In this document: in pieces, positions 605-28,940 of the stretch | Layout: every line of letters begins with the position of its first letter | How positions within the stretch are numbered: position 1 is the first letter of the stretch | Virus record (IMG/VR): IMGVR_UViG_3300036651_002363 | Location: 1-29,244 of that record | Source of the DNA: a virus | Length of the DNA stretch: 29,244 bases | Strand: one strand, 5' to 3' | Notes under the pieces: model-generated | Databases searched by the model: none | What the model saw: only the letters and a program-made list of their open reading frames with translations | Told to the model about the DNA's origin: nothing | Translations under genes and position numbers: made by a program

Positions 605-619
605 TTACCGTGGCGGTAA
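605..619 (+). repeat. Dispersed palindrome copy 1 (TTACCGTGGCGGTAA)
   Basis: Exact match to the 15-bp consensus TTACCGT[G/C][A/G]CGGTAA. It lies directly beyond the portal stop codon (620-622) and upstream of the leftward collagen-like gene, so it could act on read-through or on a promoter for that gene. Centre form is G-G. Confidence 0.9.
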
Positions 620-2926
620 TCACCCCGGACCCGGCGAGATCGGCAGTGCGTTCGGACCCTTCATGTTGCCCACGAGCGCGGTCTGCGGCCCCATGCCGCC
701 GGCGGCGATCTGTCCGTGCTGGTCGCCTTGCGACTGGCGCGCAGCGTGATCCATGCTCGGATTGTTCGTGTGCCCCGGTGCGCCACCGTTCGGTGCGGGC
801 TCGCCGCCACCTTCCGGGAGTGTACCGATATGCGTGGGCATGCCCTCCGGCATGTGCGCGTGCGAAGCGAGGAGACCCGCGGTCAACTCGGTGGCAATCC
901 GGGAAACGCCCGCCTGCACGCCCTTCTGCACGCCCTCTTGGACTTGGTGATCGAGATCACCGCCGGCCTGTTGCTGCGCCTGCTCGGCCTGCACCATCTT
1001 GTCGATCTCGTCCTCCGGCGGCACCACATTCTCGCCGTCCAGACCGATGGTCGTGGACACCGAGCGCAACACCGTGGCGCGGCCCTTGATGCCCATGATC
1101 TTCATGTCGGTCGGGTTGTTCGTCGTCGACAGGAACTCAATCTGGCGCTGGCGCAGCGTCTCGCGCTGGACGGCGACGTTGACACCCTGCACCGTGATCC
1201 GCTCCTCGCCGGTGAGAATGCCGGTCGTGTCGGTCAGCATGATCAGGTCGCCAAGCTGCAACAGCGCTGGCTCCATCACATCGCGGTCGATGTTGGCGCT
1301 CACCGTCTGCAAAATCTTGCTCGCGTTGCCCATGAGCATGGCAAGCCCGGACGCCGTGCGGCCGGCGCCGCCGCCGCTCTGGCCACCGACGTATTTCGGA
1401 ATGGCCGACACGTCATCGGAAATCTCGACGAATTTCTCATACACCGCAATGAGTTGCTGCGCGTTCGACTGTGGCTGGAAGAAGCTGATCGGCGGCTGCG
1501 AGCGGCCGGCATTCGACGGATCGTTGTTCGTGTGCCAGCGCTTCCACGGGTACATCTCCTCGCTGTTCTCGTCGACCGATAGCCGGTCATCGTCGATCAC
1601 GACCTGCGGGCCGGATGCGATGGACAGGTTATTGATCAGCGCGCGCAGCGTGGCGTTCGCGCTCTCCTGCAAGTCCTGCAAGAGATCAGTCAGGCCGTTG
1701 CCAACCGGCGTGCCGGGCACCTTCTCGAACGAGGTAATGAAGTACGGATGGCGCTGCCGAGGCGACGGCGACAGGTGCGCCTTGATCACGTGGTTGCCAA
1801 TGCACCACGCCTGCACGCTGTAATCGCGCAGATCATCTGGCACGGCGAGACCATAGTCTTGAAGAACGCGCCCTTGCACGTTCCCATTGAACTCCATCAT
1901 GGAAATCATGCCGGACCGGTTCCACGCCGGGTTCTCGCGGCTCTCTAGCGCAGCGCGCTCGGCGTCGGTTGTGTCCCAGTTGTCGTAGAGGCCGCCACGG
2001 CCATACTCGTCGAGCACGGCGCGAATTTCGTCGTGGTCGTAGCCCGGCAGATCGAGCAGATCGTTCAACTCGGCGCGTGTGATGCGCAGCTTCTCGATGA
2101 CGTTGGCGTTCTCGATATCGGCCACGCCCGGCGTCCACCAGAGATCGAACGGCGACACCCGGCACCACGTCAGCCGCGGCTTGTGCTGCACCGTCGGCTT
2201 CCCGCCGACGGGCGGCCACGTCACCTCCGGGATGACCTTGACGACCGGTCCCTTGATGCAGGCGAACGGGAACACCGGCATATCGACCAGAAACTCAGCG
2301 AGCGCGTGGTAGAAGCCACCCACCCGCAGAATGTCCTCGATCTTGTCCTCGCTGGCGCGCGCCTGCTGGGCTGCCTTCTTTTTGGCGGCGTCGCGCGCGG
2401 CTTCAAGCAGGGCGTCTCGGCGGTCGTCCACCTTGGCGGGGTCCGGTGGCTGGCCCAGTTGCTGGGCGACCATCTGGGTCTCACCCTCGATCAACTGGTT
2501 GATACTGTTGAGGATATTCGGCGGAACGTCGGGATCGGACGACGGACGCACGGACCATGGGCGATCCTGCCCGAGGTAAATATCCCGCAGTAGCGACGAC
2601 GCGGCACGGCACTTCTGCGCGATCAGGCGCGCGAAGACCTCGGTGCCACCCCACTTCCGGATTTCCTGCAATTTCTGGGCATCGTACTGGCCGTTGAATG
2701 TCCGCAGGGCGGCGAGCATGCGGTTGCTCCAGCCGGCCGATGTGTTGCGGTGGTTGCGGAAAATCTCGTACTGGCCCTTGATATAGCCGATCAACTCGAC
2801 CGGCGCGGGCTGCTGCTGTTGCTGCTGCGACGCCGTAGCCTTATCCTGCGCCTGCTGCTGAAGCTGCTGCTCCAGCGCGGCGGGAGGAATGACCTGAAGA
2901 ACGCCTGCCTGTCCGAGATTTGCCAT
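620..2926 (-). CDS. Portal (head-tail connector) protein
   Basis: This 768-residue protein resembles the large portal proteins of podovirus-type phages. The portal is the dodecameric ring at one capsid vertex through which DNA is packaged and ejected, and which docks the terminase. Visible hallmarks are an N-terminal region with KWGGTEVFARL and LRDIYLGQDRPW, a middle part with SPFDLWWTPG, and the segment around ISDDVSAIPKYVGG...GAGRTASGLAMLMGNASK, a typical portal crown/wing motif. A glutamine run lies near the N-terminus and a Gly/Pro-rich tail at the C-terminus. I chose the ATG at 2926 (MANLGQAG); the frame extends back to 3013, but that stretch is basic, unlike a portal start, and would consume the divergent promoter gap. 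It is oriented opposite to the terminase genes, which is unusual. Confidence 0.9.
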   Translation of the reverse strand: MANLGQAGVLQVIPPAALEQQLQQQAQDKATASQQQQQQPAPVELIGYIKGQYEIFRNHRNTSAGWSNRMLAALRTFNGQYDAQKLQEIRKWGGTEVFARLIAQKCRAASSLLRDIYLGQDRPWSVRPSSDPDVPPNILNSINQLIEGETQMVAQQLGQPPDPAKVDDRRDALLEAARDAAKKKAAQQARASEDKIEDILRVGGFYHALAEFLVDMPVFPFACIKGPVVKVIPEVTWPPVGGKPTVQHKPRLTWCRVSPFDLWWTPGVADIENANVIEKLRITRAELNDLLDLPGYDHDEIRAVLDEYGRGGLYDNWDTTDAERAALESRENPAWNRSGMISMMEFNGNVQGRVLQDYGLAVPDDLRDYSVQAWCIGNHVIKAHLSPSPRQRHPYFITSFEKVPGTPVGNGLTDLLQDLQESANATLRALINNLSIASGPQVVIDDDRLSVDENSEEMYPWKRWHTNNDPSNAGRSQPPISFFQPQSNAQQLIAVYEKFVEISDDVSAIPKYVGGQSGGGAGRTASGLAMLMGNASKILQTVSANIDRDVMEPALLQLGDLIMLTDTTGILTGEERITVQGVNVAVQRETLRQRQIEFLSTTNNPTDMKIMGIKGRATVLRSVSTTIGLDGENVVPPEDEIDKMVQAEQAQQQAGGDLDHQVQEGVQKGVQAGVSRIATELTAGLLASHAHMPEGMPTHIGTLPEGGGEPAPNGGAPGHTNNPSMDHAARQSQGDQHGQIAAGGMGPQTALVGNMKGPNALPISPGPG

Positions 2927-3030
2927 GCCGGGCTTTGCCTTTGTGCCCCGATAGAACCTTAAGGGCCTTAACGCGCCTTTAATGGGGCGCTGATCTTGTA
3001 AAACAGAACCCACGATGGTACAGACCGCAA
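2927..3030. promoter_or_regulatory. Divergent intergenic region between portal and small terminase
   Basis: These 104 bases separate two divergently transcribed units and must hold both promoters. A perfect 13-bp palindrome, TTAAGGGCCTTAA, lies at 2959-2971. It has the same architecture (two arms around one central base) as the dispersed TTACCGT palindrome but a different sequence. A GCGCC...GGCGC inverted pair follows at about 2973-2990. I see no clear -35/-10 pair. Confidence 0.4.
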
Positions 3031-3576: not shown

Positions 3577-3760
3577 AGGCGTGGCGAACGATCTTCGTTA
3601 CCGAACATCGGCTTGGCGCGCTGACGCAGTGGCGCGCTACAACCGGTCGCTCACCAAACACGAGTGCGACCGCCGGTATGATCAATCCGCCAAAGGCCAT
3701 GAGCGCAGAAGGAAATACAACCGTGCCCGAACCGAAAGACGACGCACAGCGTCTGTATGA
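3332..3760 (+). CDS. Basic repeat protein overlapping small terminase and phosphoesterase (start uncertain)
   Basis: An open frame runs from ATG 3332 to 3760. Beyond the small-terminase stop (3576) it encodes a convincing Arg/Tyr-rich pattern: RRYRLTPKGVANDLRYRTSA, VARYNRS, then YDQSAKGHERRRKYNRA. This tandem S/T-x-KG...R-x-Y pattern is familiar from small phage proteins of unknown, probably nucleic-acid-binding, function. Because RYRLTPKG begins before 3576, the gene must overlap the small terminase out of frame. No clear start lies between 3332 and 3581, where a GTG follows AAAGG too closely. The true 5' end could be 3332, giving 142 residues with a Lys/Ser-rich start, or much later. The 3' end overlaps the phosphoesterase by about 60 bases. 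Confidence 0.45.
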   Translation: MKTSAKRRKPRSSSPASQASKPETSSRAPAKKSSSKSTSAPTKKSSSRKRGRPPLPLSSTERLQRKRAQQRATSRRYRLTPKGVANDLRYRTSAWRADAVARYNRSLTKHECDRRYDQSAKGHERRRKYNRARTERRRTASV

Positions 3761-4826
3761 CGCTATCGAGATCATCCGCAAGAAGAACGCGGAGATCAAC
3801 GACCTCAATCGCACCATCACCCAAATCCGTCGCGACAACGACACTTGTGAAGCGATCCGGAAGGAGATTTGGGGGCTGGCCGCACACTCTCCGGAGCCGC
3901 CAGAATGGATACAGGGGCGCGGCGTGCGCAACGGCTCGCGCGGCGGACCGATCACCATCTGGTCGGATATCCACTACGGCGAGGTCGTCAACCCGGACGA
4001 GATCAACGGCGTCAACGCCTTCAACAAGAACATAGCTGCCAAGCGCATCCACCGACTCGTCAACACCACGGTCGACCTCGCGTTCAACCACATGGGCCGC
4101 GCCAAGACGACCTACCCGGGCATCGTTATCTGTCTGGGCGGTGACATGATCGGCGGTGACATTCACGAGGAACTGCTGGCGACGAATGACCGCACGCCGC
4201 ACCAGTCGGTCAACGACCTCACAGACCTACTGGCTGGCGGCATCGAGGAGTGTGCCAGCAAGTTCGGCAAGGTCTTCGTGCCCTGCGTCGTGGGCAACCA
4301 CGGTCGCAACACCAAGAAGATGCGCATGAAGGGGCGCGTCTTTACCAACTTCGACTGGTCGATCTACTGCAATCTGGAGCGCTCCTTCCGCAAGGACCGG
4401 CACGTGCAATTCTACGTGCCATCGCAGGCGGACGCCGCGTTCCAACTGTACGGCCACCGCTACCTTCTCACCCACGGCGATAGCCTCGGCGTCAAGGGCG
4501 GCGACGGTATCATCGGCGCACTGGGCCCGATCATGCGCGGCACGCTCAAAGTGCACCGCTCCGAGGCGCAGATCGGCCGCGACTTCGACACGCTGGTGAT
4601 AGGCCATTGGCACCAATACATCACTCTCCCCGGCCTCGTCTGCAACAACGCGCTCAAGGGGTACGACGAGTACGCGATGCTCCAGCTTCGCGCGCCGTAC
4701 AGCCGACCTTCACAGGCGCTGTGGTTCACTCACCCGGAACACGGCATCACGGCTCACTGGCAGGTCTACCTCGAAGGCATCCAGCACGCGCAGGATAGCA
4801 AGACTTGGATGAAGTGGGCCGCCTAG
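3699..4826 (+). CDS. Calcineurin-like metallophosphoesterase
   Basis: All five metallophosphoesterase blocks are visible (numbering from this start): SDIHYGE with D90 and H92, GGDMIGGD with D149, GNHGR with N200 and H201, THGDS with H259, and GHWH with H303 and H305. These bind two metal ions that hydrolyse phosphomono- or diesters, often nucleic acid ends or cyclic nucleotides. The protein is 375 residues, with an N-terminal helical extension (about residues 15-60) before the catalytic domain. I chose ATG 3699 because AAAGG precedes it; ATG 3678 is also in frame. It lies between the two terminase genes, so a DNA-end-processing role during packaging or replication is plausible but unproven. 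Confidence 0.88.
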   Translation: MSAEGNTTVPEPKDDAQRLYDAIEIIRKKNAEINDLNRTITQIRRDNDTCEAIRKEIWGLAAHSPEPPEWIQGRGVRNGSRGGPITIWSDIHYGEVVNPDEINGVNAFNKNIAAKRIHRLVNTTVDLAFNHMGRAKTTYPGIVICLGGDMIGGDIHEELLATNDRTPHQSVNDLTDLLAGGIEECASKFGKVFVPCVVGNHGRNTKKMRMKGRVFTNFDWSIYCNLERSFRKDRHVQFYVPSQADAAFQLYGHRYLLTHGDSLGVKGGDGIIGALGPIMRGTLKVHRSEAQIGRDFDTLVIGHWHQYITLPGLVCNNALKGYDEYAMLQLRAPYSRPSQALWFTHPEHGITAHWQVYLEGIQHAQDSKTWMKWAA

Positions 4827-4838
4827 CGGAGACCAGCA

Positions 4839-6550: not shown

Positions 6551-6597
6551 GTCAAGCAAGTCCCCTTTAACCTTTGTGATTGGTGTTTTTAGCTCCA

Positions 6598-6670: not shown

Positions 6671-7099
6671 TCAGTCGACGAACCGAAATTCGTTCTCCAG
6701 ACGGACAACCTGCCCGCGCTCGAACTTGCCGAAGCTCGCATCAAGCTGGGCGTCTATAGCCTGACGCATGGTGGCCACGTCCTGCTCCGTCCAATCGTAA
6801 ATCCCGCGATTAGCGAGATTGCCGAGCAGGCGGATCGAGCGGAGCACATTGACCATGCGACCGCCGCCGAGGCGCAGGAACTTCTGCCGCTTGCTTTCCT
6901 CGGGCGGAGCCGAAGAGGCGGGAGCGGTCGGCGGCGAGGACACGCGAGTGCGCTGCCGGCGCGTTACCGTGGCGGTAACACCGGGAGCGGACTGCGCAGC
7001 CTTGGCAGTGGTGGTGTTGCGCCGGCGCACAGCGGCCGGCGGCGTGCGGGGCACGGTCGGCAGGAAGTCCGCCAACGTAGCCTGAGTTGCAGTAGCCAT
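6671..7099 (-). CDS. Hypothetical phage protein with disordered N-terminus and helical C-terminal domain
   Basis: This 142-residue protein starts MATATQATLADFLPTVPRTP behind a strong AAGGAG site seven bases upstream; an in-frame codon at 7120 lacks one. Residues 1-75 are Ala/Thr/Pro/Arg-rich and probably disordered. Residues about 78-140 form a compact domain (KFLRLGGGRMVNVLRSIRLL, NLANRGIYDWTEQDV) of a kind recurring in small phage proteins with no assigned function. One copy of the 15-bp palindrome lies inside the low-complexity part, encoding TATVT. A good sigma70-type promoter sits upstream. Confidence 0.75.
   Translation of the reverse strand: MATATQATLADFLPTVPRTPPAAVRRRNTTTAKAAQSAPGVTATVTRRQRTRVSSPPTAPASSAPPEESKRQKFLRLGGGRMVNVLRSIRLLGNLANRGIYDWTEQDVATMRQAIDAQLDASFGKFERGQVVRLENEFRFVD
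6964..6978 (+). repeat. Dispersed palindrome copy 2 (TTACCGTGGCGGTAA), inside a CDS
   Basis: Exact consensus with centre G-G. It lies in the disordered, insertion-tolerant segment of the 6671-7099 gene and is read there as Thr-Ala-Thr-Val-Thr. Confidence 0.9.
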
Positions 7100-9097: not shown

Positions 9098-9441
9098 CAC
9101 ACCCTCCCGTGATCGTCCTCGATCCGGACAATATCGTCTTCGTCGCAACGCTCTCCTAATTGCGTCTCGACGATGATAGCAGGGATCGTTTCCCAGTTCT
9201 CGATGCGGTGGATGGCCCCGAGCGCCACGTCGATACTGTCGCCGACGCCCAGCTTGGCGCGCTGGTCATTTACCGTGGCGGTAACAAATCCCTCGACCAC
9301 CACCCAGTGCTCCTGTCGCCACTTGTGATACTGGAGACTGAGACGCTTCCCGGGGAGCACGTACAGGATTTTCACCTTCCAACCCGGGGCCTCGAACAGC
9401 GTCTTGAACCAGCCCCACGGACGCTTCTCGGTGGTGGTCAT
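9097..9441 (-). CDS. Cupin of the mannose-6-phosphate isomerase type II / ManC C-terminal family
   Basis: This 114-residue protein matches the C-terminal isomerase cupin of bifunctional ManC/AlgA-type enzymes. The N-terminus has RPWGWF, followed by PGKRLSLQYHKWRQEHWVVVEG, GDSIDVALGAIHRIEN and EDDIVRIEDDHGR. Probable metal ligands are Q37, H39, E44 and H78. In bacteria this domain interconverts mannose-6-P and fructose-6-P for GDP-mannose and surface polysaccharide synthesis. No nucleotidyltransferase domain is attached, so it stands alone. A palindrome copy lies inside it, read as FVTATVN between cupin strands. ATG 9441 overlaps the upstream stop (ATGA). A sugar role in the phage is inferred; standalone cupins can have other substrates. 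Confidence 0.85.
   Translation of the reverse strand: MTTTEKRPWGWFKTLFEAPGWKVKILYVLPGKRLSLQYHKWRQEHWVVVEGFVTATVNDQRAKLGVGDSIDVALGAIHRIENWETIPAIIVETQLGERCDEDDIVRIEDDHGRV
9270..9284 (+). repeat. Dispersed palindrome copy 3 (TTACCGTGGCGGTAA), inside the cupin CDS
   Basis: Exact consensus, centre G-G. It is read on the minus strand as Thr-Ala-Thr-Val-Asn, at a position where related cupins vary. Confidence 0.9.
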
Positions 9442-11453: not shown

Positions 11454-11468
11454 TTACCGTGAAGGTAA
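11454..11468 (+). repeat. Dispersed palindrome copy 4 (one mismatch)
   Basis: TTACCGTGAAGGTAA differs from the consensus at position 10 (A for C). It lies at the left edge of the control region, about 145 bases upstream of the 11309 start, where it could control that gene's promoter. Confidence 0.75.
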
Positions 11469-12123: not shown

Positions 12124-12191
12124 TATTACGTGCATCACACGAGCCCATACGAGCAGCCTGTTGCTACGCATGAGAGGCCACGACCTTGCTA

Positions 12192-12507: not shown

Positions 12508-12544
12508 CCCGGCGTTACCGTCACGGTAACGCCGGGCCTTTTCC
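12508..12544 (+). terminator. Rho-independent terminator with the dispersed palindrome at its tip
   Basis: A perfect 29-bp inverted repeat (12508-12536) has the outer arms CCCGGCG and CGCCGGG around the 15-bp palindrome, and is followed by CCTTTTCC. It sits twelve bases past the stop of the 54-residue gene. A protein bound to the palindrome would sit in the DNA of the terminator stem. Confidence 0.75.
12515..12529 (+). repeat. Dispersed palindrome copy 5 (TTACCGTCACGGTAA)
   Basis: Exact consensus, centre C-A, at the apex of the 12508-12536 terminator stem. Confidence 0.9.
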
Positions 12545-12645
12545 GGCGGGCCCACTGGCGAGCGTCCCGTCACACCCCCTGATTGGTCGTGATCTCCCCC
12601 AGATCGGTCAGTGGGTCCACCGGAGAAGGTAACAAGGTGGCAAGC

Positions 12646-16296: not shown

Positions 16297-16311
16297 TTAC
16301 CGTGACAGTAA
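16297..16311 (+). repeat. Dispersed palindrome copy 6 (one mismatch)
   Basis: TTACCGTGACAGTAA differs at position 11 (A for G). Its right arm runs directly into the AAGGAG ribosome site of the 16321 gene, so a bound protein or folded RNA could affect translation start. Confidence 0.8.
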
Positions 16312-16572: not shown

Positions 16573-17271
16573 ATGAACACTCAGAGTGTTTCGCAACCTG
16601 CCACTGCCAACACGATCAAGTTCGACGATCTGATGAAGATCGCCGCGGAGCTTGGCTCGGACCATGGCAAGGGCAAAGACACGCAAGTTCGTTTCCTGTT
16701 GAAGGTCGTGGAGGGCGGCTATCATGGTGCGCTCGACCTCGACAGCAACAAGCACGGCGCTGACGTGGACGACGCCACGCGGTTGAGCGAGGCGTATGTG
16801 ATGGCGCAGACCGGCTCGACTGTGTTCGATGCGAAGGCGCCGAACCAGCGCAAGCTGATCTCATGCGTGCGCACGTGCGTCAGGCTCGGGCAGTGGCCCA
16901 AGGGTGGCAATGGCGAGCCGCTGGCCACGGTCAACAACTTGATGACGACGCGACAGAAACTGCGGCAGAAGCCCGAGACGGCGAAGAAGCTTGACGATGC
17001 CGCCAACACGTTGTTGAAATACGCGCGTGTTCAGCTTAAGCGCGACACGCTTGTCGACGACAACGAGTTGCAGTCGTTCTGCTTCAAGTCGCAGGCGCCG
17101 CTTCAGACTGCGGAGCAAATTCTGGAGGGCTGCCGCAAGACGCTGATGGCGCTCCGGGATGGCAAGGCGGCGCACCACACCGCGTCGGACAACTCGACGC
17201 ACGTCGTGGCCGCCATTGCTGAGTTGAACAAGCGCCTCAAGGCCATCGCGGCCGAGAGGGCGAAGAAGTAG
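16573..17271 (+). CDS. Hypothetical DNA-associated protein, paralogue of the 12646 gene product
   Basis: A 232-residue protein starting MNTQSVSQPATANTIKFDDL with GAGGAG about nine bases before ATG 16573. The middle (RKLISCVRTCVRLGQWPKGG ... LLKYARVQLKRDTLVDDNEL) resembles the C-terminal half of the 12646 protein; the C-terminal third is a helical, basic region (ELNKRLKAIAAERAKK). Composition and duplication suggest a small DNA-binding family, with function unassigned. It is followed by a terminator-like hairpin. Confidence 0.7.
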   Translation: MNTQSVSQPATANTIKFDDLMKIAAELGSDHGKGKDTQVRFLLKVVEGGYHGALDLDSNKHGADVDDATRLSEAYVMAQTGSTVFDAKAPNQRKLISCVRTCVRLGQWPKGGNGEPLATVNNLMTTRQKLRQKPETAKKLDDAANTLLKYARVQLKRDTLVDDNELQSFCFKSQAPLQTAEQILEGCRKTLMALRDGKAAHHTASDNSTHVVAAIAELNKRLKAIAAERAKK

Positions 17272-17537: not shown

Positions 17538-17552
17538 TTACCGTCGCGGTAA
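17538..17552 (+). repeat. Dispersed palindrome copy 7 (TTACCGTCGCGGTAA)
   Basis: Exact consensus, centre C-G, lying three bases after the 17534 stop and 22 bases before the MoxR start at 17575. It is well placed to be an operator or an attenuating structure for the MoxR-VWA cassette. Confidence 0.9.
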
Positions 17553-17574: not shown

Positions 17575-18714
17575 ATGAATATCGAAGAAGCTGGCCGCGA
17601 AATCCTTATCAACGCGGATGCTGGCAACAGCACCCTACTCGTTGGTGAGAGCGGCGTCGGTAAATCGCAGAAGATTTACCAGACATTCCAGAAGCTGAAG
17701 GCCGCCCGTGAGAAGAAGGGCGAGCGCTGGGGCTTCGGGCAAATCTTCGCGGCGACACAGACCCCGCCGGATATCATCGGTTTCCAATTCAAAGGTCAAA
17801 AGACCTTCGAGTTGGGCGGCAACACGCATACGGTGACGGTCACTGATCCGTCTGTGCCGCTGTGGATGATCTCCACCGAGGGCCTGCCGGCCTTTGCCTA
17901 TGACAAGTTCTTTCTCAATATCGAGGAGTATGGTCAAGGCGAGGCGGACGTGAAGCGCGCCATCGCTGAAATCTTCCTCAACGGCGGCTCGTCGCCGTGG
18001 TATCTGCCGCCCGGTTCGATCCGCGTGGCCAGCACCAACGAGGGTTCGCGCCATGGCGTGACGAAGGATTTCGACTTCGCCATCGCGCGTCGCACCAAGA
18101 TACACGTCCGCGGTGACGTGCGGTCGTGGTTGAACTGGGCCAATGCGCCGTATCACTTCCAAGGGCGCGACTGGCTGGTACAGCCGGTGGTCAAGGCGTG
18201 GGCCGAGACCAATCCTCAAATCCTGTTCGAGGACCCGCCGAAGGAACAGGGACCGTGGGGTAACCCGCGCTCTATCACGGCGACCGACCGCTATTTGCAG
18301 GTCAAGGCCGAGCACAGCGGCGGCCAGCTTGACCTGACCGATCCGACCATCGTCGAGATGATGGCCGGGACCATCGGTATGCCGGCGGCCACGTCGCTGA
18401 TGAACCACCTCCAGTTCCGGCTGGAGTTGCCGCCGTACGAGGACGTCGTGCAGGACCCCGGTGGCACAAAGCTTCCGGATCGCGCTGACCTCAAGATGCT
18501 GATGGCGTACGAGTTGGCCTCGAAAACCGAGGTTAGTGACCTCGGCCCGGTGCTGTCGTATGTCAAGCGCCTGCCTGCCGACATGTCGATCACGTTCGTC
18601 AGTGCGCTGCTGCGGCGTGACTATAACCGGTTCATCAATGAACCGGCGATGCAGGGCTGGATCAGCAAGAATGCCGCGCTGGTCTCCATCATCGCGTCGT
18701 TGAGCCAGAACTGA
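17575..18714 (+). CDS. MoxR-type AAA+ ATPase
   Basis: A 379-residue AAA+ protein. Walker A GESGVGKS (24-31), Walker B-like FFLNIEEY (112-119), sensor 1 VASTNEG (151-157) and a following FDFAIARR with candidate arginine finger are in MoxR order. MoxR ATPases work as chaperones that remodel or load metal into partner complexes, typically with a von Willebrand A protein encoded next door, as here at 19959. GAGGAG lies nine bases before ATG 17575; an upstream in-frame ATG (17494) is ignored. A palindrome precedes the gene and a palindrome-tipped hairpin follows it. The substrate in this phage is unknown. Confidence 0.88.
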   Translation: MNIEEAGREILINADAGNSTLLVGESGVGKSQKIYQTFQKLKAAREKKGERWGFGQIFAATQTPPDIIGFQFKGQKTFELGGNTHTVTVTDPSVPLWMISTEGLPAFAYDKFFLNIEEYGQGEADVKRAIAEIFLNGGSSPWYLPPGSIRVASTNEGSRHGVTKDFDFAIARRTKIHVRGDVRSWLNWANAPYHFQGRDWLVQPVVKAWAETNPQILFEDPPKEQGPWGNPRSITATDRYLQVKAEHSGGQLDLTDPTIVEMMAGTIGMPAATSLMNHLQFRLELPPYEDVVQDPGGTKLPDRADLKMLMAYELASKTEVSDLGPVLSYVKRLPADMSITFVSALLRRDYNRFINEPAMQGWISKNAALVSIIASLSQN

Positions 18715-18722
18715 GAGTGACC

Positions 18723-18764
18723 GCGGTGGCCGGTGTTACCGTGACGGTAATCTCCGGCCACCGC
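18723..18764 (+). terminator. Long hairpin enclosing a palindrome copy, after the MoxR gene
   Basis: GCGGTGGCCGG (18723-18733) pairs with CCGGCCACCGC (18754-18764); between them lies the full 15-bp palindrome with two and three spacer bases. The stem is strong, but there is no T-run after it. It starts eight bases past the MoxR stop and is the second case of a palindrome placed at a hairpin tip. Confidence 0.65.
18736..18750 (+). repeat. Dispersed palindrome copy 8 (TTACCGTGACGGTAA)
   Basis: Exact and fully self-complementary apart from the central base. It forms the tip of the 18723-18764 stem. Confidence 0.92.
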
Positions 18765-18788
18765 GCCATCTATAGTCCGAACCATCAC

Positions 18789-19097: not shown

Positions 19098-19227
19098 GAA
19101 GTGCAAACCATATGACAGGTCAACGCGGTGGGTAGACGTCAATCCGTGGTATCTGCACGAGATGAAGGAGAACTACCAACTGAAGTCATTAATAAGCGGC
19201 GGCGAGACAGGACGGCGTTGGCCATGA
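18928..19227 (+). CDS. Hypothetical basic protein
   Basis: A 99-residue protein (MKKAKREALRHTRHMENTKR, later YYGVPKAHYTVLARLVAWRK and WVDVNPWYLHEMKENYQLKS) with convincing amino acid make-up: basic and Tyr/Trp-rich. ATG 18928 has only a weak site (GGGACG ten bases upstream). The stop overlaps ATG 19224. Function unknown. Confidence 0.6.
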   Translation: MKKAKREALRHTRHMENTKRRQERAYAAIAADAKRYYGVPKAHYTVLARLVAWRKGEKCKPYDRSTRWVDVNPWYLHEMKENYQLKSLISGGETGRRWP

Positions 19228-19319
19228 TGCCGCACAGCGAAGAAGTTCTTGATAAGTACCTTAGGTGGCGACAAGGCGACCCAAGGTTCATGACGAAGCG
19301 CGATCAACGGAGGAGCACG

Positions 19320-19631
19320 ATGCAGCGACAGTTCACTATCGAAATCCGCGTCGACTACGCGGACAATGCCAAGAATGACACCATGAAGACGGCAATGCAG
19401 GCGGCGGCGCGCCACGTGTACGCGACCGCAGTGCTGCTGGCCGACGGCGTCAAGCCGCAGGTGGCCATCTTTAGCGATGACTTTTTCACGGGGCACGAAG
19501 AGATCGCCTTGTTGGAGGACACCATCGCCAAGGGTATCGAGGCCATCGACGCCGCCAACGATCAGGAGCAGATCAGTGGGGAACTTCTCGCGGCTGCCGG
19601 AAACGGAAACCCTCTTGGGTCTGGCAAATAG
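19320..19631 (+). CDS. Hypothetical protein
   Basis: A 103-residue acidic protein (MQRQFTIEIRVDYADNAKND, then KTAMQAAARHVYATAVLLAD, QVAIFSDDFFTGHEEIAL), alpha/beta in style. GGAGGAG six bases before ATG 19320 supports this start. A longer in-frame start at 19224 (MMPHSEEVLDKYLRWRQGDP) overlaps the upstream stop as ATGA and cannot be excluded. Function unknown. Confidence 0.65.
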   Translation: MQRQFTIEIRVDYADNAKNDTMKTAMQAAARHVYATAVLLADGVKPQVAIFSDDFFTGHEEIALLEDTIAKGIEAIDAANDQEQISGELLAAAGNGNPLGSGK

Positions 19632-19969
19632 CCGTGTCGCGCGTGCCCGCCGGCGTGCCTCTGGTCACCGCGGATCGGGTGCTCCCAACGGAGCACCCTA
19701 CGCTGACTGGGAACGTTACATCATGTGGGAACTCGCTTGGCTCCATATGTGCGTTGTCGAACGAGATAAAATACTGGCACACGCGCGCCGAGGTGTGCGA
19801 GTGCCTGTGGCATGCGTACTATCGGAATAGACCGCGCAAATTCCCCGGGTGTCTATCCCGGACGTGGAGGTGGCGGACCGCGTGGTACGACGAGATCGAG
19901 AACCAGCACCGCCTGTGCTTGCACAAGATCGAAGAATTGCAAAAGAGGAGCATCGAGTATGGCAAATGA
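19576..19969 (+). CDS. Hypothetical protein requiring a +1 frameshift at about 19771
   Basis: GTG 19576 follows AGGAG by seven bases. The first frame reads well through WERYIMWELAWLHMCVVERDK, then turns into Arg/Val-rich shadow and stops at 19830. The next frame, shadow-like before this point, reads YWHTRAEVCECLWHAYYRNR and DEIENQHRLCLHKIEELQKR up to the stop at 19967-19969. Skipping one A in the AAAA run 19768-19771 joins them into a 130-residue protein with consistent Trp/Tyr/charged composition. The end overlaps the VWA gene start. Either an indel (real or sequencing) or a programmed +1 shift is needed; alternatively two overlapping short genes exist. Confidence 0.55.
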
Positions 19970-21251
19970 AGTCGCACCGCTCACGGACGAGTTCAAAGAA
20001 ATTGAACTTACGCCGGAGCAAAAGCAGAAGTGGGGCGACACCATGTCGCTCATGGCGTGGACGGCGCCGGGCTTCCGGCATCTGTTCTACAAGTTGCTGG
20101 CCTATAACAAGGGCCAGCACGTCGCGGTGTTCACCGACAAGGTGCCGCTCGCGGCAACGGACGGGCAGCATATCCTGCTGAACCCGGAGCCGTTCTTCAA
20201 GATGGAGTTGAAAGAGCGCGTGTTCGTGATCACCCACGAGGTGATCCACAACGTGTTCAACGATATCGAGTTGCTGCATCGCTGCCGCACCTCTGAGAAG
20301 GTGCCGCTCAACAACGGCACGACTCTGCCGTTCGATGAAGATACGATGCAGAAGTCGATGGACTACCGCATCAATGCGCTGATCGTCGACAGCCGTATCG
20401 GCGCCATGCCCAAGACTGCCGACGGCAAGCAGATGGGCTGCTGGGACACGAACCTGAGCGGTCCCAACGACAGCGTGCTCGACGTGTACGAGAAGGTCTA
20501 CAAGAACAAGCCGCCGTCCCCGAAGGGGTTCGACAAGGTGCTCAAGCCCGGTTCTTCCACTGGGCAGAACCCGGGGGCTGCCTCGCAGTCGCGCAATGGC
20601 CAGCAATGGGCAGTGGAGATCGCCGCGGCTCAGACCATCGAGGCGATGAAATCGCAGGGCAAGATGCCCGGTGCGCTCCAGCGCATGTTCCACGACTTGC
20701 TGAACCCCGAGGTGCCGTGGACCGACCATATCCGCGCCATCTTCGCGCGGCGCGTCGGCTCCGGCTCGTACAACTGGCGGCGTCCTGACCGCCGGTTCAT
20801 CGTCCGCGATATCTACCTGCCCAGTTCCTCCGGCTTCGGCGCAGGCTGGGTGGTGTGCTGGGGCGACACGTCCGGCTCTATCAGCCAGCCTGAGTTGGAG
20901 AAGTACATGGGCGAGCTTGGCGGCATCATCGAAGACGTGCGCCCGCGCCGCCTGACCGTGCTGTGGTGTGACAGCAAAATCCATCACGTCGACGAGATTG
21001 AAGACACTGCCGACTTGCAGTCGATCAAGGCGCGCGGTGTAGGCGGCGGTGGCGGCACGTCGGTCAATCCGGTGTTTGATTGGATTTTCGAGAACCCGGA
21101 CGAGCAGCCGGATTGCTTCATCGGCTTCACCGATGGCCACGTCGGCTTCCCGCAGATGGAGCCCGAGTTCGACGTGGTATGGTGCTGCACGACCAAACAG
21201 CCGTTCCCGTGGGGCGAGGTGGTGCGCATCAACCCGGGGCACAGGGAATAG
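19959..21251 (+). CDS. HEXXH metallopeptidase-like / von Willebrand A protein, partner of MoxR
   Basis: A 430-residue protein with the layout of DUF2201-type proteins: an N-terminal putative peptidase domain with HEVIH (93-97, in VFVITHEVIHNVF), a Gly/Ser/Gln-rich linker (about 195-215) and a C-terminal VWA-like domain. MIDAS metal-site residues are visible as DTSGS (303-307), the GGGGTS loop (363-368) and TDG (391-393). MoxR-VWA pairs remodel protein complexes; the MoxR gene lies upstream. GAGGAG precedes ATG 19959 by nine bases. Palindrome copies lie immediately after the stop and again at 21801. What it cleaves or unfolds in infection is unknown. Confidence 0.85.
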   Translation: MANEVAPLTDEFKEIELTPEQKQKWGDTMSLMAWTAPGFRHLFYKLLAYNKGQHVAVFTDKVPLAATDGQHILLNPEPFFKMELKERVFVITHEVIHNVFNDIELLHRCRTSEKVPLNNGTTLPFDEDTMQKSMDYRINALIVDSRIGAMPKTADGKQMGCWDTNLSGPNDSVLDVYEKVYKNKPPSPKGFDKVLKPGSSTGQNPGAASQSRNGQQWAVEIAAAQTIEAMKSQGKMPGALQRMFHDLLNPEVPWTDHIRAIFARRVGSGSYNWRRPDRRFIVRDIYLPSSSGFGAGWVVCWGDTSGSISQPELEKYMGELGGIIEDVRPRRLTVLWCDSKIHHVDEIEDTADLQSIKARGVGGGGGTSVNPVFDWIFENPDEQPDCFIGFTDGHVGFPQMEPEFDVVWCCTTKQPFPWGEVVRINPGHRE

Positions 21252-21252: not shown

Positions 21253-21267
21253 TTACCGTGACGGTAA
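21253..21267 (+). repeat. Dispersed palindrome copy 9 (TTACCGTGACGGTAA), overlapping a GTG start
   Basis: Exact consensus one base after the VWA stop. Its central GTG (21258-21260) is the apparent start codon of the next gene. Confidence 0.92.
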
Positions 21268-21809
21268 CGAACGACGTTGCGTACGAAGTCTTTGCCGTGG
21301 TGTGGTTTCCGGGGCTGGGCGAGTACATTCGGCCCCGGGGCTACGACGCGCCGACGATGCAGTTGGTGTGCGACGTCATCGCAGACGACATAGACCGTGG
21401 CTTGCGCCACACCGTCCATCTTATCGAGGAGGAGTTCATGGCATTGAATACAGAAGAGGAACGCTTCCGCTCGTTCGCGGAGCGCTATGTCATCGAACGC
21501 GCGCAGTCGTTCACCGTGGGACATGAGCAGGAGGAGGCGTGGCGTGCGCTTCTCGACGCCAAGTCCCTGTACATGCAGGTCAAGGGCATGGGTTCGGTGA
21601 CGTTCGGCCAGCAGGATACGACACAGGCGCCTATGACCAATGGACAGACGAACCCGGCTAGCGGTGGCCTTGTCCCGCGCGCACAGCCGAAGGTGTCACA
21701 GCAGATGGCGCATGACGCGCTCAAGGCGGCGGAGACCGCGCCGCGTAAAGGCGCGTTGAGAAAATTAAAAGATGCCGCCCGGCGCATCGGCGGGGGTTCG
21801 TTACCGTGA
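21258..21809 (+). CDS. Hypothetical protein starting inside a palindrome
   Basis: From GTG 21258 (in TTACCGTGACGG) the frame gives 183 residues: MTVTNDVAYEVFAVVWFPGL, DVIADDIDRGLRHTVHLIEE, then a helical part (ERFRSFAERYVIERAQSF) and a polar linker and basic tail (KGALRKLKDAARRIGG). An alternative ATG at 21438 with a better GAGGAGG site would give 123 residues starting MALNTEEERFRSFAERYVIE. The upstream part still reads like protein. It ends inside another palindrome (stop 21807-21809). The helical part resembles Acb2/phage accessory proteins only in general style; no function is assigned. Confidence 0.6.
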   Translation: MTVTNDVAYEVFAVVWFPGLGEYIRPRGYDAPTMQLVCDVIADDIDRGLRHTVHLIEEEFMALNTEEERFRSFAERYVIERAQSFTVGHEQEEAWRALLDAKSLYMQVKGMGSVTFGQQDTTQAPMTNGQTNPASGGLVPRAQPKVSQQMAHDALKAAETAPRKGALRKLKDAARRIGGGSLP

Positions 21810-21815
21810 CGGTAA
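21801..21815 (+). repeat. Dispersed palindrome copy 10 (TTACCGTGACGGTAA), overlapping a stop codon
   Basis: Exact consensus; the TGA of its centre is the stop of the 21258-21809 gene. It lies 21 bases before the 40-residue ORF at 21837. Confidence 0.92.
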
Positions 21816-22845: not shown

Positions 22846-22860
22846 TTATCGTGACGGTAA
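22846..22860 (+). repeat. Dispersed palindrome copy 11 (one mismatch), overlapping a GTG start
   Basis: TTATCGTGACGGTAA differs at position 4 (T for C). Its central GTG (22851) is the apparent start of the next gene. Confidence 0.8.
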
Positions 22861-23063: not shown

Positions 23064-23269
23064 CGCCGCTCGACCGGTCTATAGCCAACGACGTCTTGGG
23101 TGCATGCAGCGCCCGATGGCAATCTGCATGCGGCGTAGGATATGGGGACGGTTTGGAAGAAGATATGCGCTGCGCCTTCGCCGCGTGGCGGCAGGCTTGG
23201 TATGATGTTTACAACGAGTTGTATGGTGCGACGATTACGGCGAGACCCCAGCGGAGGAGCACACTATGA
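23048..23269 (+). CDS. Small hypothetical protein
   Basis: A 73-residue protein (MAEGVTPLDRSIANDVLGAC, later EEDMRCAFAAWRQAWYDVYN). GGAG precedes ATG 23048 by seven bases; the end overlaps the next start (ATGA). The F-x-x-WR...Y pattern is shared with the preceding protein, hinting at a tandem pair of related genes. Confidence 0.6.
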   Translation: MAEGVTPLDRSIANDVLGACSARWQSACGVGYGDGLEEDMRCAFAAWRQAWYDVYNELYGATITARPQRRSTL

Positions 23270-23970
23270 GCCGACGAAAAAACACGGTCAGGACTGGTAA
23301 GCGAATGCTGGGCCAGCACTTAACCATGGCTACAGACAAGGTGATGTGGTTGGCCCGCAATGTTCTGGAAGCGACGATACGCTCCGAGCCGGCCATGACG
23401 TCGCAACAGATCATCGACCAACTAATCCTTCCGCAGCATCAACGCGCGCTGCGCGAGGCGCGCGGCATAGTGCAATACTACCCCGCCATTGACAACGTCC
23501 CTACACCCTATGTCGGCGTGCAGGTACAGTTCAACTGGAGCCGCTTGCCTTACGCGAGAGCGGAGGAGAAAATTTTTAACTTCGCCCCCGGCACGCCGCT
23601 GTCTAATCTGTGCGAGCGCCTAAGCAAGGTGCGGCAGGATTGGGAACGAGTAATGGCCGTGCTGCACTATTTCGACAGGTATGGCACCCCGGGAGCGGCC
23701 CGGTACTACTGGCCGACTATTGTCACGCTTGCTCCCGACCACGACGTATCGACGGCCGGACTGGGCAACTCGTTCGTCGATCCGATTAACTATTCGCAGT
23801 GGTTGCCAATGATGCGGGACACCGCTACAACGGTGGCATCGGCGCTGATGCTGGCGACCCCTGAGCAAGGTGACACGACCGCGATCCAGATTGTGCTTCC
23901 TACACTGTCTCGCAACCTGCACGGCGAGAACTTCGAGTGGGGTTCGGTCGTAGTGCCCCTCTGCGATTAA
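23266..23970 (+). CDS. Hypothetical protein upstream of the DNA polymerase
   Basis: A 234-residue protein starting MSRRKNTVRTGKRMLGQHLT with GGAGGAG before ATG 23266. The middle is helical with Trp/Tyr motifs (LPYARAEEKIFNFAPGTPLS, VRQDWERVMAVLHYFDRYGT) and the C-terminus is strand-rich (AIQIVLPTLSRNLHGENFEW). I recognise no family. Its place directly before polymerase suggests a replication-linked job. Confidence 0.6.
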   Translation: MSRRKNTVRTGKRMLGQHLTMATDKVMWLARNVLEATIRSEPAMTSQQIIDQLILPQHQRALREARGIVQYYPAIDNVPTPYVGVQVQFNWSRLPYARAEEKIFNFAPGTPLSNLCERLSKVRQDWERVMAVLHYFDRYGTPGAARYYWPTIVTLAPDHDVSTAGLGNSFVDPINYSQWLPMMRDTATTVASALMLATPEQGDTTAIQIVLPTLSRNLHGENFEWGSVVVPLCD

Positions 23971-23980
23971 GGAATTGGGA

Positions 23981-25894
23981 ATGAGCGGCGCCCTGAACCT
24001 CGTCTTTCTGGACTTCGAGACCTATTACGACGACGTGTACAGCCTGCGTCGTATGCCGACGCCAAACTATATTCTCGACCCTCGGTTCGAGAGCATTATG
24101 ATGGCGGCGAAGGTGAACTCCGGTCTATCTCAGATCGTGGACGGGCCGGACATTCCCAAGTTTCTCGCCACCCTGAACCCCGAGCGTACCGTGACGGTAA
24201 GTCACAACGCTCTGTTTGATAACAGCATTCTCTCCTACCGCTACAACTTCATCCCCTACATGATGCTGGACACGCTGGGCATGAGCCGCGCCCTGCTGGG
24301 GCACGAATTGCGCAGCCACTCGCTCGACAAGGTGGCGGACTTCCTCGGTCTCGGCGCCAAGGGCAAGTTCCTCGCCAACGTCAAGGGCATGACGCGCGCG
24401 CAGATCATCGCGGCCGGCTATTGGCCCGAGTTCTGCCGATACTGCCTGCAAGACAACGACCTGTGCGCCGGCATCTTCGCCAAGCTAAGCCCCGGTTTCC
24501 CCGAGCCCGAGCGCCGGCTGATGGACCTCGTGCTCCGCTGTGCCGCGGTGCCGCGCTTCCGCTGCGACACCCAGCTACTCACTGAGCACCTTGTCGACGT
24601 GCGGCAGGAGAAGGAGGACCTGATCGCCAAGGTGGCAGTTTCGACCTCTGACCTGCAATCCGCGGCTAAGTTCTCCCAGCTACTCACCGAGCGCGGTGTA
24701 GAAATCCAGTACAAGACCAGCGCTGCAACCGGCAAGCAGACGCCGGCTTTCGCCAAGACCGACCAGTTCATGGCGGACCTGCAAGAACATCCGGATTTGG
24801 AAGTGCAGGCGCTAGTAGCCGCCCGGTTAGGCGTCAAGAGCACTATCGAGGAGACGCGTAGCGACAAGCTACTTAGTATTGGTAACCTACCGTGGCCAAC
24901 ATGGCTGGGCAGCAACATGATGCCCATTCCCCTAGCGTACGGCAAAGCGCACACGCACCGACTGGCCGGCGAGTGGGGTATGAACATGCAGAACCTGCCC
25001 TCGTCGCGTAAGAAGGACAAGAACGGCGTCCCGATCTCCAAGCTACGTCGGTCGCTCGTCGCTCCACCCGGGTACAAGGTGATCACCGCGGACCTAGGAC
25101 AGATCGAAGCGCGCCTGAGCGCGTTCATTTGTCAGTGCACGCAGCTATTGGAGCAGTTCGCGAAGAAGCTGGACCCGTACGCCAAGATGGGCAGTGCGAT
25201 CTTCAGGTTTGAGGTAGACCCGACCGTGCACAAGCTGGAGCGCTTCATCGGCAAGACAGCCATTCTAGGACTGGGCTACGGCTGCGGCTGGAATAAGTTC
25301 TACACGATGGTCATCACCAGCGCGCGCCTGTTCGGCATCCCACTTGGCAATATCTGGACCGAGGAGCTAGCCGAGAGATCGGTGCGCACGTATCGCAGCG
25401 TCAACTGGCAGATGCAGGTGGGCTGGGGTACGCTCGACAATTTTCTGGACGCGTGCTGGTTCAGTGGCCATCCGCCGATGAAGTTTGGGCCGGGCGGCAT
25501 CGTCGAGATCGGACCCGGCTACGTTAAGCTGCCCAACGACATGTACCTGCGCTACGCCGACCCGATGCGAGACGCCGTGGCCGAAAAAACTTACCGTCAC
25601 GGTAAATTCACCCACAAAATCTACGGCGCGAAGCTGCTGGAGAATATAGTGCAGGCGCTGGCGAGGATCGTAGTGATGAACGCAGCGCTCCGGATCAGGG
25701 GCCGCGGTGACAAGTCATGGTCCCGGTTTGTGTTGCAGGCCCACGACGAGCTAGTGTTCATCGTGCCGGACGCAGAAGTTGACAAAGCCAAATTGATAAT
25801 CCATGAAGAGATGACGCGGCGCCCGTCATGGGCACCGTCACTACCCCTGACTGCTGACGTTGGTGTCGGCCAGTCATACGGTGAAGCCAAGTGA
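23981..25894 (+). CDS. Family A DNA polymerase with 3'-5' exonuclease domain
   Basis: A 637-residue replicative polymerase. The exonuclease domain has LDFETYY with D11 and E13, SHNALFDNSIL with D80 and CRYCLQDND with Y154 and D158. The polymerase domain has motif A DLGQIEAR (371-378), motif B in ERFIGKTAILGLGYG (420-434) and motif C HDE (588-590). No 5'-3' exonuclease domain is present, as usual for phage enzymes. AAGGA precedes ATG 23981 by about seven bases. Two palindrome copies lie inside the gene (read as RTVTVS and TYRHGK), one in the exonuclease domain and one shortly before motif C. Helicase, primase and SSB are not seen in this window. Confidence 0.93.
   Translation: MSGALNLVFLDFETYYDDVYSLRRMPTPNYILDPRFESIMMAAKVNSGLSQIVDGPDIPKFLATLNPERTVTVSHNALFDNSILSYRYNFIPYMMLDTLGMSRALLGHELRSHSLDKVADFLGLGAKGKFLANVKGMTRAQIIAAGYWPEFCRYCLQDNDLCAGIFAKLSPGFPEPERRLMDLVLRCAAVPRFRCDTQLLTEHLVDVRQEKEDLIAKVAVSTSDLQSAAKFSQLLTERGVEIQYKTSAATGKQTPAFAKTDQFMADLQEHPDLEVQALVAARLGVKSTIEETRSDKLLSIGNLPWPTWLGSNMMPIPLAYGKAHTHRLAGEWGMNMQNLPSSRKKDKNGVPISKLRRSLVAPPGYKVITADLGQIEARLSAFICQCTQLLEQFAKKLDPYAKMGSAIFRFEVDPTVHKLERFIGKTAILGLGYGCGWNKFYTMVITSARLFGIPLGNIWTEELAERSVRTYRSVNWQMQVGWGTLDNFLDACWFSGHPPMKFGPGGIVEIGPGYVKLPNDMYLRYADPMRDAVAEKTYRHGKFTHKIYGAKLLENIVQALARIVVMNAALRIRGRGDKSWSRFVLQAHDELVFIVPDAEVDKAKLIIHEEMTRRPSWAPSLPLTADVGVGQSYGEAK
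24186..24200 (+). repeat. Dispersed palindrome copy 12 (one mismatch), inside the polymerase CDS
   Basis: GTACCGTGACGGTAA differs only at position 1. It is read as Arg-Thr-Val-Thr-Val in the exonuclease domain, just before the conserved SHNALFD. Confidence 0.8.
25591..25605 (+). repeat. Dispersed palindrome copy 13 (TTACCGTCACGGTAA), inside the polymerase CDS
   Basis: Exact consensus, centre C-A, read as Tyr-Arg-His-Gly-Lys in a different frame phase from copy 12. Confidence 0.9.
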
Positions 25895-25951
25895 GCGAGC
25901 GTGTCCCGATGGATACTCGCAGTCTGCCCCGCCACAACGATGGAGCAAGCT

Positions 25952-26302: not shown

Positions 26303-26310
26303 GCGTGACC

Positions 26311-26844
26311 ATGGACACCAAGTTTGAGTATCCGGTCGGACTAGCGACAACCGCGCATGCGCATGCGCGCGCAGATCAAAGGCCGGCCGGCGCGAAACCG
26401 TCAAACCCGAAAGACGCTGTCGGCATCAAGAAAGTGCCGTGGTCCGTGATCCCGTTGCCTGTGCTGTGGGAGTTGGGCGTCGCCATGTTGGAAGGCGCGC
26501 TCAAGTATGGGCGGCACAACTATCGCAGCATCGGCGTGCGTGCGTCGGTGTACTACGATGCGACGGTCGCGCGGCATCTCGCGTCGTGGTGGGAAGGTGA
26601 AGACCTTGACCCGGACAGTGGGCTCTCCCATATTACAAAAGCCATCGCGTCGCTGACCGTGCTCAGGGACGCGATGATCAGAGGCAACTGGATCGACGAC
26701 CGTCCGCCCAAGACCGACCCGACGATACTCGCTGAACTGAACGAGCGGGCTGCCGCCTTGCTCGCGAAGTACCCCGAGCCGAAGGACGCGTTCACGGAGC
26801 AAAATTACCGTGGCGGTAAAGGAAAAAACGCTGCCGGGCGGTGA
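26311..26844 (+). CDS. MazG-like dATP/dGTP diphosphohydrolase (DUF5664/MazZ-like)
   Basis: A 177-residue protein with the all-helical MazG/MazZ pattern. The N-terminal KPSNPKDAVGIKKVPWSVIP leads to ELGVAMLEGALKYGRHNYRS, ARHLASWWEGEDLDPDSGLS and HITKAIASLTVLRD. Acidic residues E61, E95, E97 and D98 and H107 are likely to bind magnesium and nucleotide. Known relatives hydrolyse dATP/dGTP to the monophosphate and, in some phages, help replace adenine by 2-aminoadenine. ATG 26311 follows the previous stop by eight bases. Its end overlaps the next gene and contains a palindrome (read as NYRGGK). Confidence 0.8.
   Translation: MDTKFEYPVGLATTAHAHARADQRPAGAKPSNPKDAVGIKKVPWSVIPLPVLWELGVAMLEGALKYGRHNYRSIGVRASVYYDATVARHLASWWEGEDLDPDSGLSHITKAIASLTVLRDAMIRGNWIDDRPPKTDPTILAELNERAAALLAKYPEPKDAFTEQNYRGGKGKNAAGR
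26805..26819 (+). repeat. Dispersed palindrome copy 14 (TTACCGTGGCGGTAA), at a gene junction
   Basis: Exact consensus, centre G-G. It is read in two frames: as part of the MazZ-like tail and as the GTG start plus Ala-Val of the next gene. Confidence 0.9.
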
Positions 26845-28286: not shown

Positions 28287-28588
28287 TGCCCTACATCGCA
28301 GAAAAGGACCGCCCCGCGCTCGACAAGCACATCGACGCGCTGGCTGACGAGATCAGGCGCATCGCGTGCTCATACGACTACGCAGGCGCCTTTGCCGGCG
28401 TCCTCAACTACACGTGCACGCGCCTAGCCATGCGCGTGATCCCCGCCAAACGCTACTGGACTATCGCGCTGGTCACCGGCGTCTTCAAGAACATCGCGGA
28501 CGAGTTCTACCGCCGCGTTGGTGTCCCCTACGAGGACGAGCAGATCGCCAAGAACGGCGACGTTCCCGAGTACAAGGAGTTCAAATGA
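28286..28588 (+). CDS. Conserved phage protein (DUF6899-like)
   Basis: A 100-residue helical protein: MPYIAEKDRPALDKHIDALA, YDYAGAFAGVLNYTCTRLAM, then FKNIADEFYRRVGVPYEDEQ and KNGDVPEY. I recall this pattern (PYI...R..LD..I..LA, GVFKNIADEFYRR) from a conserved phage family of unknown function, labelled DUF6899; the label is from memory. The start overlaps the upstream stop (TAATG); the stop overlaps the next start. Confidence 0.7.
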   Translation: MPYIAEKDRPALDKHIDALADEIRRIACSYDYAGAFAGVLNYTCTRLAMRVIPAKRYWTIALVTGVFKNIADEFYRRVGVPYEDEQIAKNGDVPEYKEFK

Positions 28589-28668
28589 TCGAGGAGGGAC
28601 TGTTGTGGTTACAGAAGCGAACGTTGGACCGGATGAAGAGGGGCGTCGAGGGGACGAGCAAGATTTAA
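28585..28668 (+). CDS. Micro-ORF, 27 residues
   Basis: The frame reads MIEEGLLWLQKRTLDRMKRG then VEGTSKI, an amphipathic helix. Its ATG overlaps the upstream stop (ATGA). The next gene starts inside it at 28605 and uses its GAGGAGGG as a ribosome site, so it may serve mainly as a coupling leader. Confidence 0.4.
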   Translation: MIEEGLLWLQKRTLDRMKRGVEGTSKI

Positions 28669-28940
28669 TCCCGGACTTCCTTCGCCTCACCGCCGAGGAG
28701 CGCCGGGCCAACTGGGAAGGTCGGACCCTCACCGATCCTTACCGTGGCGGTAACATCGACGAGCAGCTTGCGCGCGAGCGAGCGTTGCGCGCGGCTGCCG
28801 ACGCCGAGCGCCGAGCCAAGCGCGACGTGGCACGCGAGGAGATGCTGGCTCGTCACGCTGCCGCCGGCGAGGTCTACGACCGCAAGATGAAACTGTGGGT
28901 GAAGAATGCGAACGGCGCAGCAGGATCAGGAGCTAGCTGA
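28605..28940 (+). CDS. Hypothetical charged helical protein
   Basis: A 111-residue protein from GTG 28605, preceded by GAGGAGGG at about seven bases. It contains DLIPDFLRLTAEERRANWEG, then a palindrome read as PYRGGN, then a long Arg/Ala/Glu helix (ARERALRAAADAERRAKRDV) that could form a coiled coil. The LT-x-EER-x-x-W motif is common in small phage proteins. Function unknown. Confidence 0.6.
   Translation: MVTEANVGPDEEGRRGDEQDLIPDFLRLTAEERRANWEGRTLTDPYRGGNIDEQLARERALRAAADAERRAKRDVAREEMLARHAAAGEVYDRKMKLWVKNANGAAGSGAS
28739..28753 (+). repeat. Dispersed palindrome copy 15 (TTACCGTGGCGGTAA), inside a CDS
   Basis: Exact consensus, centre G-G, read as Tyr-Arg-Gly-Gly-Asn at the hinge between the N-terminal part and the coiled-coil helix of the 28605 gene. 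Confidence 0.9.

Follow-up and report, generated by a model that had tools for sequence, protein, structure and literature searches.

A dispersed palindrome array and a linked gene cassette upstream of PolA in a family of soil phages: predicted sites for a dimeric phage protein

The complete IMG/VR record IMGVR_UViG_3300036651_002363, 29,244 bases long and here called the window, represents part of a phage genome of 60-70 kb. It carries 15 copies of the palindrome TTACCG-N3-CGGTAA and a gene cassette that occupies one locus upstream of PolA (Table 1). Eleven copies are exact to TTACCGTNNCGGTAA and four deviate by one mismatch (11454, 16297, 22846 and 24186). With up to two mismatches allowed on both strands, the window yields 30 strand-matches, corresponding to the 15 sites, compared with 0.25 expected and a maximum of 3 in dinucleotide-preserving shuffles; two extra sequences at three mismatches (17828 and 27296) are at chance level. 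All copies listed in an earlier note on this DNA were thus confirmed, as was their excess over chance. Shuffling synonymous codons, a comparison which that note had proposed, leaves 0.06 in-gene copies in the window against 5 observed, and 4.2 against 250 in 18 related contigs, so that protein sequence and codon usage cannot explain the copies. The motif as first described holds for the window, whereas relatives show the broader form TTACC-N4..6-GGTAA, in which an inner G..C is preferred; the extension to 17 bp by flanking G and C, said to affect many sites, is found in 5 of the 15. As the window is a single fragment record, the claim of a genome-wide set is borne out by the relatives rather than by the window itself.

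The cassette encodes a basic helical protein of family cl19, which is the candidate site binder, a MoxR-type ATPase, a small acidic protein and a VWA/DUF2201 protein, frequently accompanied by further genes. A PADLOC search found no defence-family match in the cassette, and the AlphaFold model of the 23266-23970 product, of modest confidence, gave no fold match. The VWA protein is matched by 463 phage records. In RefSeq phage entries it is commonly labelled 'HNH endonuclease', a name to which the DUF2201 Pfam match gives no support.

Table 1. Genes of the linked cassette, associated genes and palindrome sites in the window
Feature	Coordinates	Strand	Remarks
cl19, candidate site binder	16573..17271	+	232 amino acids, basic (isoelectric point (pI) 9.3), all-helical AlphaFold model
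Second, short cl19-family member	12637..13056	+	139 amino acids, pI 10.2, ~110 bp past site 5
Cassette ATPase	17575..18714	+	PHROG 1297; full-length alignment to phage 'MoxR-like ATPase' proteins, as in N4-like phages
Cassette small acidic protein	19224..19631	+	in 17/18 array-bearing and 0/8 array-less contigs
Cassette VWA/DUF2201 metallopeptidase-like protein	19959..21251	+	Pfam match DUF2201
Family 41, frequent extra cassette gene	21258..21809	+	called GTG start falls within site 9
Family 35, fast-evolving, just upstream of PolA	23266..23970	+	in 16/18 array-bearing contigs, profile match in a 17th; 0/8 array-less
Exonuclease-like protein, PHROG 284	3723..4826	+	in most array-bearing contigs, in no array-less ones
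Site 1, TTACCGTGGCGGTAA	605..619		intergenic
Site 2	6964..6978		within gene 6671-7099
Site 3	9270..9284		within gene 9097-9441
Site 4	11454..11468		one mismatch; intergenic
Site 5	12515..12529		intergenic; tip of a 12-bp perfect hairpin (CCCGGCG...CGCCGGG), inverted repeat 12508-12541, TTTT shortly after
Site 6	16297..16311		one mismatch; just 5' of the gene at 16321
Site 7	17538..17552		immediately upstream of the cassette ATPase gene
Site 8	18736..18750		immediately downstream of the ATPase gene; tip of a longer inverted repeat, 18722-18767
Site 9	21253..21267		immediately downstream of the VWA gene
Site 10	21801..21815		upstream of the gene at 21837
Site 11	22846..22860		one mismatch; intergenic
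Site 12	24186..24200		one mismatch; within the PolA gene
Site 13	25591..25605		within the PolA gene
Site 14	26805..26819		overlap of genes 26257-26844 and 26810-27364
Site 15	28739..28753		within gene 28605-28940

Portal, terminase and PolA group the window with 60-70 kb phages, the closest isolates being the Rhizobium phages RHph_TM3_14A, TM27A, TM27B and TM29 (61% identity in the portal and 42% in PolA); a megablast search of the window against isolated phages returned no match. In an annotated genome of the RHph_TM3_14A group, one strand carries the structural genes and the opposite strand those for PolA, helicase and RecB-type proteins. The array carriers represent a family of soil viruses infecting bacteria. 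Contigs compared are designated G0xx and are metagenomic; G012, G016, G020, G044, G046 and G051 are partial, and related genomes are non-independent data points. Genes of relatives were called by a small custom script, and single gene boundaries in them are therefore approximate. Two short IMG/VR contigs (loci L228 and L229) encode a portal 100% identical to that of the window and show that this phage species occurs in further samples. Rfam and tRNA scans of the window found nothing.

A scan of 2.9 million viral contigs with one 15-mer variant gave many single matches and a set of contigs of about 66 kb with several matches each; long multi-match contigs hold 12-25 sites, compared with 0-2 for a reversed-pattern control. 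Among relatives the array comprises roughly 20 to 70 copies per genome, with a maximum of 68 in G029. In a de novo search for spaced palindromes, TTACC-N5-GGTAA (TTACCG-N3-CGGTAA) ranks top in each array contig. The N4 spacing occurs additionally in G004 and G009, and N6 predominates in G029 (49 sites, plus 19 with N5) and in the cultured phage RHph_TM3_14A, which carries the cassette and 34 sites (26 N6, 8 N5). In the latter two genomes the spacers vary from site to site almost throughout, which implies that the copies arose independently. Between G002 and G003 the arms are 98-99% identical and the flanks 83-84%; for G028 and G030 the corresponding values are 96-100% and 82%. This genome comparison establishes, at the level of sequence, that the array is kept by selection and that its sites are of independent origin. 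GGACC/GGTCC, a second palindrome whose arms are separated by 4 bp, shows a weak excess (4-6 copies versus 0.1-0.25 expected) in G027, G028, G030, G031 and G053, which include array-bearing and array-less contigs.

The copies are numerous, in keeping with a dispersed mobile palindrome or the binding site of a host factor, but spacers that differ between sites leave the mobile-element alternative raised in the earlier note unsupported. Moreover, relatives that lack the cassette also lack the array, and the exact 17-mer occurs in bacterial genomes once per contig and near chance (45 matches versus about 30 expected). Such an origin is therefore extremely improbable. A search through the genomes of 84,980 bacterial and archaeal species yielded no relative of the cassette ATPase; together with the near-chance frequency of the 17-mer there, this makes control of lysogeny as well as recognition by a host factor less likely.

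The distribution of the array follows that of the cassette. ATPase and VWA families are present in 18 of 18 array-bearing and in none of 8 array-less contigs, and the basic helical protein was detected by BLAST in 17 of the 18 and in none of the 8, the eighteenth (G029) being recovered by a profile. Array-less contigs fall into more than one clade of the core-gene tree (monophyly is rejected by the approximately unbiased (AU) test, p = 2.7e-5), and five independent changes are placed on it, in all of which cassette and array switch jointly. As a prediction test, twenty contigs were scanned from those found by their portal, which has at least 580 matches in IMG/VR. Among the long ones, G043 and G048 have both array and cassette, and G041, G049, G050 and G053 have neither; the fragments G044 and G046 show the array, but in them the cassette locus is partly or wholly missing. 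In G047 the cassette occurs without a TTACC array; this contig carries an array of its own, about 20 copies of GTTAC(A/C)-N4..6-(T/G)GTAAC with a TTACA half-site. Of 11 contigs found by their ATPase, 10 hold 8-38 TTAC..GTAA palindromes, compared with 0-4 in the reversed control. G062 and G068, likewise with cassette and without TTACC array, carry TTACTG-N3-CAGTAA (21 copies, up to one mismatch allowed) and TTACT-N6-AGTAA, respectively, and the array of G063 is sparser and degenerate. Across the contigs compared, array and cassette are thus seen to be present, absent and re-specified jointly.

At the cassette locus, G026 (27637-30682) and G041 (33936-36997) contain two other large genes of 547 and about 470 amino acids. 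Since these are common to G026 and G041 only, one common replacement cassette in array-less relatives was rejected. In G041, the PolA gene is seemingly split in two by an inserted HNH-endonuclease-like gene (29390-31748, locus L324).

The occurrence of the exonuclease-like gene in array-bearing contigs only would suit a self-recognition tag, in which bound sites shield the viral DNA from a phage or host nuclease, and site number and spread indeed seem to weigh more than exact position. However, several array-bearing genomes have no such exonuclease, the cassette is devoid of defence-family matches, and array-less relatives occur within the same clade, which renders this explanation quite improbable.

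Every site can be folded, those at 12515 and 18736 lie within longer stable stems, and half-site changes in relatives affect both sides. A hairpin of RNA or single-stranded DNA, acting as terminator, processing site or N4-type promoter, might account for these features. Yet within each genome the spacer bases next to the arms show no covariation, their pairing tending to stay below the level expected for independence (71/188 versus 91.6 at position 6), and arm position 5 is mismatched in 8 of the 20 sites of G047. In addition, the spacer length varies from 4 to 6, and two of six tested sites fold no better than shuffles. The missing spacer covariation and the arm mismatches, which also set the sites apart from the hairpin promoters of N4, fit a symmetric dimer on duplex DNA, and we regard the hairpin reading as very improbable. 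The inverted repeat around site 5 with its TTTT resembles an intrinsic terminator.

Intergenic DNA holds 119 sites versus 31.5 expected under uniform placement, a 3.8-fold over-representation. Positions up to 50 bp upstream of starts account for 23% of sites, compared with 7% at random (3.4-fold enriched), sites just 3' of stops are threefold enriched, and short gaps are favoured generally. The density is 0.57 per kb in the PolA-strand (replication) arm and 0.28 in the opposite arm, with the same direction in 17 of 17 genomes. In temperate Cluster A mycobacteriophages, the phage repressor binds the stoperators, and the earlier note had likened the set to these as sites of a phage-wide regulator. 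The stoperator-like spread stands, and independent spacers, dyad symmetry, constraint, the tie to the cassette and the density in the replication arm support a phage-wide set of protein-binding sites. A stoperator system proper, whose repressor would use the sites to silence transcription and thereby give immunity or early shut-off, is further consistent with the dispersal of sites over both arms, with their doubled density in the replication arm and with their over-representation in short intergenic gaps. The sites are symmetric, however, and hence have no orientation with transcription; about two thirds are intragenic, the cassette encodes no recognised repressor family, and the missing ATPase relatives in cellular genomes mean that there is no sign of a prophage. 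We therefore judge it an unlikely, albeit serious, alternative.

In several genomes, above all G029, G046, G030, G028, G004 and G047, the spacing is more even than expected at random. Sites are rarely less than about 400 bp apart, and the largest gap among the 68 sites of G029 is 2.2 kb. These features would be expected of a clamp for genome architecture, segregation or pre-packaging, in which selection acts on site spacing and the protein is stripped off by the ATPase/VWA pair ahead of packaging. The twofold bias to one arm argues against it, as does the evenness itself, which is not significant in many single genomes. Neither a ParA nor an SMC-like partner was seen in the cassette, and no ParB match was obtained among the window proteins scanned; parAB genes in relatives were not searched for. 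This clamp is consequently rather doubtful. The packaging-landmark, methylation and host-nucleoid readings put forward in the earlier note are without positive support.

At the junction of the divergent arms (11592-12170 of the window), an AT-richer intergenic stretch of about 500 bp holds GCTATGCA in seven exact copies and several near-copies, accompanied by ACACCGTGTCC repeats. These repeats look like replication-origin iterons.

The joint re-specification strongly suggests that some cassette product reads the sites. Among the strictly linked products, the cl19 family is the sole basic one, with a median pI of 9.4 versus 4.7-5.7 for ATPase, VWA and small protein. The AlphaFold model of the 16573-17271 product is confident and all-helical (predicted local distance difference test score 87). 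In a viral fold search it retrieved two unnamed phage proteins only, one of which has 242 amino acids, the length of the RHph_TM3_14A homologue, EVB41_028. The candidate binder of G047, with its altered array, is merely 31% identical to that of its sister G016, compared with 56-60% for ATPase, VWA and PolA. Residues near-invariant in 22 TTACC-type proteins are changed in G047 (Q92, K94 and R100, in helix 90-106) and in G062 (N91 and Q92). We consider it reasonably likely that the 16573-17271 product is the reader and contacts the sites via helix 90-106. The two binders named in the earlier note found no support: the 7848-8474 product has an OmpR-type winged helix just under the Pfam cut-off and belongs to a family present in every array-less relative, and the 14689-15279 product is in no widely shared family.

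Taken together, the palindromes are best explained as predicted duplex sites of a dimeric phage protein from the PolA-adjacent cassette, likeliest the 16573-17271 product, and we hold this account as a whole to be probable. The dimer would recognize a half-site (G)TTACC(G) on each side, with 4-6 bp between the TTACC arms, and would act together with the MoxR-type ATPase and the VWA/DUF2201 protein. Since sites are everywhere, mostly intragenic, fairly even and denser over the replication arm, we favour a dispersed roadblock or architectural clamp, positioned about once per 1-3 kb and more densely in the replication arm. The bound protein might damp early transcription and organise the genome, and the ATPase/VWA pair could conceivably load or remove it. 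It is possible, although we put this forward tentatively, that the whole constitutes an undescribed DNA-organising or silencing system, composed of a new all-helical DNA-binding family, selected sites and a MoxR-type ATPase/VWA drive.

Several observations weigh against this account. About 67% of the sites in the 18 contigs are intragenic, so promoter control is unlikely for most of them. The pooled p-value for spacing overstates the evenness, because it counts related genomes, and the sign test on the joint switches gives a p of only 0.0625, as five pairs permit no lower value. Presence alone does not single out the binder, since the small protein and family 35 also track the array. Searches with the 16573-17271 product against Pfam, PHROG, PADLOC and PDB sequences yielded nothing useful, its model found no match in a PDB fold search, and no recognised DNA-binding domain emerged from the Pfam, PHROG and PDB sequence and fold searches. 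Position 92 is the sole conserved column altered in all three divergent proteins (G047, G062 and G063), but this is merely suggestive, as about 0.6 such columns are expected by chance. G064, which has the most distant ATPase (28%), showed no palindrome array, and G051 is a 45-kb fragment. Finally, an array in every phage with the ATPase/VWA pair was rejected, because the N4-like genomes VBP32, XC38 and IME11 encode homologues of both proteins and have no palindrome array.

In N4-like phages the pair corresponds to N4 gp24/gp25, an ATPase and a vWFA protein whose function is listed as unknown (PMC2784036). The window pair likewise consists of an AAA-type ATPase and a VWA protein, and tblastn ties it to Schitoviridae proteins. 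For the array itself, the earlier note was aware of no described match; the closest counterpart is found in Cluster O mycobacteriophages, whose 17-bp repeats TGTTCGG-N3-CCGAACA are of unknown function and predicted to bind a dimeric protein (PMC4351075). Both sets comprise dozens of copies of an odd-length palindrome with a variable short centre, genic as well as intergenic and with a higher density over part of the genome, and both occur in phages from which no lysogens have been recovered; they differ in sequence (TTACCG-N3-CGGTAA here), host group and virion. In a contig with 35 Cluster O-type sites the spacing is not even, and use of the same cassette by these repeats was rejected, as the contig has no relatives of cl19, ATPase, VWA, small protein or the 23266-23970 family. 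Cluster A (L5) stoperators are also short sites spread phage-wide, many of them in short intergenic gaps, but they are asymmetric, 13 bp long and aligned with the direction of transcription (PMC4351075, PMC3203893), unlike the palindromes studied here, for which no lysogeny is known. The start-associated sequences (SAS) of Cluster K resemble the array in being many short repeats, some of them near gene starts; they are asymmetric and lie within a few bases of start codons (PMC3203893), in contrast to the placement of our sites. A literature search for the literal motif found no paper.

A palindrome array was thus already on record for Cluster O, with neither gene linkage nor a partner gene reported in the part of the source at hand (PMC4351075). 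The present comparison ties such an array to a specific cassette, via several independent changes and three lineages with a different half-site, which names genes for testing. Laboratory work can decide the matter, because the cultured Rhizobium phage RHph_TM3_14A carries both the sites and the cassette. The assignment would give a first handle on a widespread phage ATPase/VWA pair that is annotated only as 'ATPase' and, misleadingly, as 'HNH endonuclease'. If true, the DNA-organising or silencing role would be the first function for this uncharacterised pair, which N4-like phages encode as well.

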